Shown here: in pieces, positions 1,769-25,561 of the stretch | Numbering within the stretch: position 1 is the first letter of the stretch | Layout: each line of letters opens with the position of its first letter | DNA from: a virus | IMG/VR virus record: IMGVR_UViG_3300025141_012149 | Span: 1 to 25,561 of that record | Strand: one strand, 5' to 3' | Length of the DNA stretch: 25,561 nt | Translations under genes and position numbers: made by a program | Notes under the pieces: generated by a model | Seen by the model: the letters and a program-made list of their open reading frames with translations, nothing else | Database searches by the model: none | Told to the model about the DNA's origin: nothing

Positions 1769-2018
1769 TGTCTCGAAGAAGGAAACAGAATAGACATACT
1801 GGACTCGGGGGCAGTACCCGACGCCTCCACCAAATTTTAAGGCATATGGGGGCGAAATAGGATCGACAGGTGTAGTAAAAGTAACTGGAGAGACAGGGTT
1901 AATCGCCTAATAGATTAAACACAATAAACGCAAACGATAACTTTGCATATGAGGATTATGCGCTAGCCGCTTAATCTGTCGGGGCTTGGCCCACCTAGCA
2001 ACAGAACGGGCTTTTTTT
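1769..2018 (+). ncRNA. ssrA: Two-piece, circularly permuted transfer-messenger RNA (alphaproteobacterial type)
   Basis: tmRNA frees stalled ribosomes and tags their products for degradation. The acceptor piece comes first: a T-arm-like hairpin (TCGGG 1805-1809, CCCGA 1817-1821), acceptor strand CGCCTCC (1822-1828), then ACCA (1829-1832). After a 15-base intervening segment (1833-1847) the coding piece starts with GGGGGCG (1848-1854), which pairs with 1822-1828 over 7 bp with one G-U. A D-arm-like AAATAGGATCGAC follows. The resume codon GCA is at 1930 and the tag ANDNFAYEDYALAA ends with TAA at 1972-1974. AGATTAA (1912-1918) pairs with TTAATCT (1971-1977) around the tag. TGTCTC (1769-1774) pairs with GAGACA (1890-1895), a P2-like helix joining the two pieces. 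The order, acceptor before coding piece, is that of permuted alphaproteobacterial genes. Exact mature ends are estimates. Confidence 0.95.
1989..2018 (+). terminator. Weak possible terminator or 3' end of the tmRNA coding piece
   Basis: GCCC (1989-1992) can pair with GGGC (2008-2011) ahead of a run of T (2012-2018). The stem is short and the loop long, and GCCC can instead pair with GGGC at 1982-1985. Termination is therefore likely to be partial, and readthrough into the downstream island is plausible. The site may mainly mark the processing end of the coding RNA. Confidence 0.4.
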
Positions 2019-25026: not shown

Positions 25027-25561
25027 ATGAAGTTAAAACGTATCATTCAGGCAATAACTCATGGACTAATGTTATTCGCTGCAACAAGAGCATTTGCAGG
25101 GGAAACTGACGCAATAGGTCGAGTCGATACGATAGAAGGTGCTGTATACGTTATTCGGGACGGTGAAAAGATTGTTCTTAGTAAGGATGATCCTATCTTA
25201 CAAGGTGATACAATTCTTACTGGTGAAGATGGTTCCATAGGTATTACATTCATTGATGAAACAGTATTCTCTCTTGGTGAAGATGGTGAGATGACCATTG
25301 ATGAAATGGTCTATAATCCAGATGGACAAGAAGGTACATTTGCCGCCAATATGGTTAGTGGTGTATTCTCATTCATATCTGGTGAAATTGCAAAAACTGA
25401 TCCCGAAGGAATGTTAGTTAAAACACCAGTAGGGATTATTGGTATACGTGGAACTAAGGTCGCTGGTGTTGCAGCTGCAGAAGGTACAGAAAACAGTATA
25501 TCACTATTACCAGAAATGGGTAGGGACGGTAAACCCATAATCGGTGAACTAGTTATGACCA
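25027..25561 (+). CDS. FecR-domain secreted protein, N-terminal part (cut by right edge)
   Basis: The first 178 residues of a longer protein. Residues 1-24 form a signal peptide: basic start MKLKR, hydrophobic core HGLMLFAATRAFA and likely cleavage after AFA. A FecR-type domain follows (GRVDTIEGAVYVIRDGEK, GDTILTGEDGSIGITFID, FSLGEDGEMTIDEMVY, GVFSFISGEIAKTDPEGM, VKTPVGIIGIRGTKVAG). In bacteria such modules occur in cell-surface or large adhesin-type proteins. A secreted FecR-like protein in a phage helicase operon is unexpected; it may be a virion or cell-surface component. The start has GAGAG 10 bases upstream and a stop-to-ATG gap of 2 bases. Base composition is richer in GC than the genes before it. 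The C-terminus and overall size are unknown. Confidence 0.8.
   Translation, partial: MKLKRIIQAITHGLMLFAATRAFAGETDAIGRVDTIEGAVYVIRDGEKIVLSKDDPILQGDTILTGEDGSIGITFIDETVFSLGEDGEMTIDEMVYNPDGQEGTFAANMVSGVFSFISGEIAKTDPEGMLVKTPVGIIGIRGTKVAGVAAAEGTENSISLLPEMGRDGKPIIGELVMT

Follow-up and report, generated by a model that had tools for sequence, protein, structure and literature searches.

A complete circularly permuted tmRNA in an uncultivated virus record, and putative small genes within the intervening segment of tmRNAs from related phages

The window analysed here, the whole 25,561-bp stretch of an IMG/VR virus record (IMGVR_UViG_3300025141_012149), contains at positions 1769-2018 a complete alphaproteobacterial-type tmRNA in circularly permuted, two-piece form. 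Its gene structure, the structural selection acting on it, its place in a conserved cassette and the lack of any SmpB found in relatives lead us to propose, with a probability of roughly 0.88, that the phage carries its own functional alpha-type permuted tmRNA, which would be expressed from this cassette, matured by enzymes of the host, alanylated and dependent on host SmpB to rescue ribosomes, presumably to the benefit of the infection. Related phage tmRNAs extend this picture, as the segment predicted to be excised from their precursors frequently appears to house small protein-coding genes.

Results and discussion

Identity and architecture of the tmRNA

The first-pass annotation, made from the letters of the window alone, had described a permuted tmRNA with a 6-bp P2-like helix, a 7-bp acceptor pairing, an ACCA end and a 15-nt intervening loop, all of which proved exact on direct reading. 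The identification is borne out by two Rfam covariance models, RF01849 (alpha_tmRNA), which strongly matches positions 1716-2017 with 138.2 bits (E 4.7e-38; cut-off 50 bits), and RF04321 (tmRNA_permuted), which matches positions 1770-1974 with 126.7 bits (E 8.5e-25; cut-off 47 bits). ARAGORN likewise called a permuted tmRNA and recovered the tag reading frame claimed earlier, with the complete tag ANDNFAYEDYALAA. The CCA-ended acceptor piece lies 5' of the coding piece, and the 7/7 pairs of the acceptor stem include a single G-U at position 3-70, the alanine signal. The elements of the gene are as follows:

1769-1774, + strand: P2 helix, 5' strand (acceptor piece), TGTCTC; pairs 6/6 with GAGACA at 1890-1895; covaries
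1794-1801, + strand: inner helix, 5' strand, with its partner at 1867-1873; within the RF01849 match; compensatory changes
1805-1821, + strand: T-arm, with a stem of 5 bp and the 7-nt loop GGCAGTA; Rfam match and covariation
1822-1828, + strand: acceptor stem, 3' strand CGCCTCC; pairs with GGGGGCG at 1848-1854, U70 pairing with G3
1829-1832, + strand: discriminator A and CCA (ACCA), 3' end of the acceptor piece; read from the sequence
1833-1847, + strand: intervening segment AATTTTAAGGCATAT, 15 nt, predicted to be excised; read from the sequence
1848-1854, + strand: acceptor stem, 5' strand GGGGGCG, 5' end of the coding piece; sequence, Rfam and covariation
1855-1866, + strand: D-loop region AAATAGGATCGA; conserved among relatives
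1890-1895, + strand: P2 helix, 3' strand (coding piece), GAGACA; covariation
1930-1974, + strand: tag reading frame ANDNFAYEDYALAA with stop TAA; ARAGORN
1975-2018, + strand: coding-piece 3' domain, containing the ACCTAGCAACAGAA motif and a T run at its end; RF01849 alignment to 2017

The tag frame is open and ends in a hydrophobic degron followed by the stop codon. No consensus match to an intrinsic terminator was found 3' of the tmRNA, though the T run is present. The folding energy of the acceptor half, with a z of only -1.67, counts against the proposed functional tmRNA.

Structural selection among relatives

A total of 72 distinct phage tmRNA cores were collected, and covariation was analysed in the 43 belonging to the lineage of the window, on a MAFFT alignment anchored to the structure of the window. 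Covariation of the helices, which the first-pass annotation had put forward as a check, is evident. Standard pairs occupy 93.2% of the cells formed by 25 pairs in these 43 tmRNAs, compared with a mean of 79.8% and a maximum of 81.5% in 500 shuffles, a control that does not amount to a probability because the sequences are related. Changes on both sides of the helix were observed at 15 of the 25 pairs (shuffle maximum 13), while versions of the helices that had been slid pair at only 40-52%, a comparison somewhat favourable to the alignment since the latter is anchored on the structure of the window. The variable positions of the acceptor stem exchange GC, AT, CG and TA pairs, the G3-U70 pair is invariant in 72/72 distinct phage tmRNAs, and the P2 helix joining the two pieces is maintained by compensatory change. 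The both-side changes in the acceptor stem, the T-arm and P2 constitute the stronger evidence of structural selection.

Viral source and the bS21-ORF86-tmRNA cassette

The source of the window is a marine phage whose replication block is T5-like. The D5-like regulator has its best matches in Vibrio T5-like phages (about 40-42% identity), the DnaB helicase shows 31% identity to T5-like phages and the NAD ligase matches phrog_3869, so that the block formed by these three genes is most like that of T5-like phages (Demerecviridae and kin) at 31-42%. None of the genes in this 25.6-kb fragment was recognised as a T5-type structural or packaging gene. The family phrog_323 was also tried as a marker of T5-like kin and was rejected, its control matching in 11 of 14 cellular genomes. 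No near-identical DNA was found in annotated phages. At 25027-25560 the window also holds the start of a FecR-like gene (named by eye; phrog_37870, function unknown) with a signal-peptide-like beginning, which is unusual for a phage.

The tmRNA is preceded by the following features:

1189-1452, + strand: bS21, a phage-encoded ribosomal protein with which the cassette begins; Pfam PF01165 E 1.2e-9, above cut-off; phrog_21469 E 1.4e-6
1461-1489, + strand: sigma-70 consensus promoter TTGACA-17-TATAAT; 12/12 consensus matches
1505-1768, + strand: ORF86, a small protein of 87 aa; weak WYL_2/Sm-like SH3-fold match, PF10902 E 0.003, below cut-off

Many relatives have a promoter-like site at this offset before ORF86, and positions 1461-1489 are likely the promoter of both ORF86 and the tmRNA. 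ORF86 is conserved at 58-78% among relatives, and no homologue of it was found in annotated phages. A scan of viral contigs with this protein returned 80 loci, of which 61 have bS21, always upstream and on the same strand. The tmRNA comes next in essentially all of these 61 loci having enough downstream sequence; where it is missing, the contig ends within about 0.6 kb of ORF86. The loci devoid of bS21 mostly have no tmRNA; the tmRNA is nevertheless present in L075, L126 and L133, whose contigs start close before ORF86. The three genes thus appear to form a fixed same-strand cassette of this phage lineage (1189-2018 in the window; L066-L126). Together, the replication genes and this cassette uphold the earlier placement of the tmRNA in phage rather than host DNA.

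This fixed arrangement bears directly on whether the gene has any role for the phage. It could be a host tmRNA gene captured by imprecise excision or misassembly, all the more as tmRNA genes are common integration sites and the authors of the study on phage Melnitz weighed a transfer from a temperate phage (PMC9004378). We regard such a passive origin as scarcely credible and already largely refuted by the conservation, since the gene is complete, no integrase was seen in the window, the position after bS21 and ORF86 is fixed in dozens of contigs and the helices covary across contigs. Host contamination and a truncated integration remnant were also considered and rejected.

The stop codon of ORF86 abuts the P2 helix, which begins on the very next base, so that processing of the tmRNA would end the ORF86 mRNA. 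The tmRNA might accordingly act mainly as a processing element whose cleavage splits the transcript of its neighbour, and not in ribosome rescue; this is nonetheless very unlikely, as the retained tag frame and G3-U70 pair are unneeded by a mere processing site. The fixed association of the tmRNA with a ribosomal protein of the phage points to a control of the host ribosome exerted as a unit by the cassette.

Proposed working of the phage tmRNA and its tag

The first-pass annotation had suggested that the phage supplies its own rescue RNA, which would work with host SmpB and host processing enzymes, and this remains the best reading in view of the intact RNA, its structural selection and the cassette. 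No SmpB was found in the 20 phage records searched, several of which are fragments, whereas the control matched in 10 of 14 genomes; the tmRNA therefore probably relies on the SmpB of the host. In the working model, the tmRNA would be co-transcribed with ORF86 from the promoter at 1461-1489, within the cassette containing the phage bS21. Cleavage 5' of G1848 would fall to the RNase P of the host, and trimming back to the CCA at 1832 to its 3'-end enzymes, with the loss of 15 nt; the two resulting pieces would be held together by the acceptor stem, the inner helix and P2. Host AlaRS could then charge the CCA end through G3-U70, and host SmpB would bring the charged tmRNA to stalled ribosomes, where the nascent chain would receive the tag (A)ANDNFAYEDYALAA and be directed to degradation. 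A benefit to infection may be expected if phage takeover and mRNA decay yield many non-stop mRNAs. One more lineage of uncultivated phages, whose replication block is T5-like, would thereby join the carriers of their own ribosome-rescue RNA.

The tag leaves room for a different function. The form ANDNF...EDYALAA recurs in several phages and was absent from 84,980 bacterial and archaeal species genomes in two scans using exact degenerate patterns only; being unlike the bacterial tags in these scans, it could have tag-specific effects. The phage tmRNA might thus mainly compete with or re-program host trans-translation, by displacing the host tmRNA from SmpB and by altering through its tag which proteins are degraded. 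DS6A, a tag-less phage tmRNA inhibiting the host tmRNA (cited in PMC11915505), offers a precedent for a competitor. We nevertheless consider this unlikely as the main function: the RNA is complete, its tag retains the general alphaproteobacterial form ANDNF...ALAA, for which normal degradation is expected, and the peculiarity of the tag depends on searches limited to exact degenerate patterns. No tmRNA-like DNA was found in plasmids.

Small genes in the intervening segment of related tmRNAs

The spacer between the two pieces measures 15-256 nt in relatives of the lineage, the window having the 15-nt, empty form. L066, the nearest relative of the window, shares its tag and all but one of the 69 bases of its acceptor piece (68 of 69), for a spacer of 88 nt against 15 in the window. 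Spacers of at least 120 nt were found in 46 among the 153 distinct cores listed from several scans; as these did not sample tmRNAs at random, the first of them admitting short spacers only, this figure does not provide a population rate. Many long spacers contain an ORF preceded by a ribosome-binding site. When each cluster was represented by a single spacer, such an ORF covered at least 70% of the spacer in 19 of 78 clusters, whereas 200 dinucleotide shuffles gave 1.07 on average and never more than 5; the 19 clusters do not represent as many independent origins, because several of them share one protein family. The gene-bearing tmRNAs exceed the Rfam cut-offs.

Nested genes were seen in L098, L120, L154, L079, L090, L126, L133, L009, L081, L106, L209 and others, and several are under measured purifying selection. 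A membrane-like peptide of 38 aa, represented by 28 distinct DNA alleles, displays 1357, 623 and 3368 differences at the three codon positions, with a mean dN of 0.051 and a mean dS of 0.659, indicative of purifying selection. The nested gene shared by L098 and L120 has a dN of 0.031 and a dS of 1.33, that of L126 and L133 a dN of 0.039 and a dS of 0.21, and that of L079 and L090 a dN of 0.29 and a dS of 2.8, the latter saturated. This selection at the protein level supports the nested ORFs as real genes, and the presence of genes in phage tmRNA spacers is well supported by these sequence comparisons. At least 67 of the 80 loci of the 38-aa peptide fall within a tmRNA spacer according to a strict pattern, as do 3, read by eye, of the 11 others. 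A 69-aa family is divided between loci inside (8/17) and outside (9/17) a tmRNA spacer, suggesting that a gene of the ordinary phage repertoire can enter or leave the spacer. Neither the nested 38-aa protein nor the 69-aa one was found in annotated phages. In the spacers of L243, L245 and L200, a second, GDSDEE-like short frame that has an AAAGGAG site of its own was noticed by eye overlapping the start of the 38-aa gene, possibly a two-gene arrangement within the spacer.

The stop codon of the nested gene lies within the spacer in 12 of the 19 clusters. In the remaining 7 it is a TAG located a few bases into the coding piece, past the expected RNase P site, so that cleavage by RNase P would leave a non-stop message, itself tagged by the tmRNA. 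Taken together, these observations make it quite probable that the excised segment houses and exchanges small genes, one precursor giving rise to the two tmRNA pieces and to a mini-mRNA bearing a ribosome-binding site, with a possible feedback on the tmRNA level. The separate translation of this mini-mRNA and such a feedback are speculation, and they raise a testable question: could the segment removed from a tmRNA precursor function as an mRNA regulated by its parent tmRNA? The literature searched yielded no account of protein-coding genes located in this part of a tmRNA.

Comparison with known systems

The first-pass annotation was unsure whether a permuted phage tmRNA had been described. 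This was already the case: a two-piece tmRNA was reported in 2022 in the OM43 phage Melnitz by a study in which 402 phages, for the most part marine, yielded 133 distinct tmRNA structures, 53 of them two-piece (PMC9004378), and 79 phage tmRNA sequences are listed in PMC11915505. Like that of the window, the Melnitz tmRNA is phage-borne, permuted and of the alpha type, matches the same Rfam families and has its tag in the same place. Both phages also encode bS21, about 10 kb away from the tmRNA in Melnitz but adjacent, in the same cassette, in the window. They differ in that Melnitz is a T4-like myophage, whereas the window has a T5-like replication block, and in that Melnitz has a glutamine riboswitch beside its tmRNA, for which (RF01739) the window gave no match at E up to 0.5. 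The spacer is 142 nt long in Melnitz and 15 nt in the window. An unannotated ORF with a ribosome-binding site was observed in that of Melnitz (L063:2868-3044), running into the coding piece.

Permuted tmRNAs were also observed, unannotated in the records, in the cultured Ruegeria phage vB_RpoS-V10 (L064:2457-2848) and the cultured Rhodobacter phage RcXuper (L065:2428-2844). In the former, a GOLLD RNA (L064:1853-2286; 151.4 bits, cut-off 150) lies directly 5' of the tmRNA. A phage record from human faeces (MT836065.1:6018-6108) has a 77% match to the tmRNA acceptor half.

With the alphaproteobacterial two-piece tmRNA (RF01849; Caulobacter type), that of the window shares the order of the pieces, the T-loop, the D-loop, G3-U70, P2 and the ANDNF start of the tag, but it is located in a virus and the tag end YEDYALAA was unseen in bacterial genomes with the patterns used. 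Cluster C mycobacteriophages also encode a ribosome-rescue RNA, in one unpermuted piece. Cargo in the intervening segment has been described for two permuted tmRNAs, one carrying a tRNA-Ala gene and the other a repeat (PMC11915505). These resemble the relatives of the window in carrying extra sequence in the excised segment, whereas the cargo of the phage relatives is apparently protein-coding and belongs to many unrelated families, the window having only 15 nt. The tmRNA of the window is hence another member of the known phage permuted tmRNAs and not the first. What may be new lies outside the window, in the small genes contained in the spacers of related phage tmRNAs, along with the fixed bS21-ORF86-tmRNA cassette, which looks newer.
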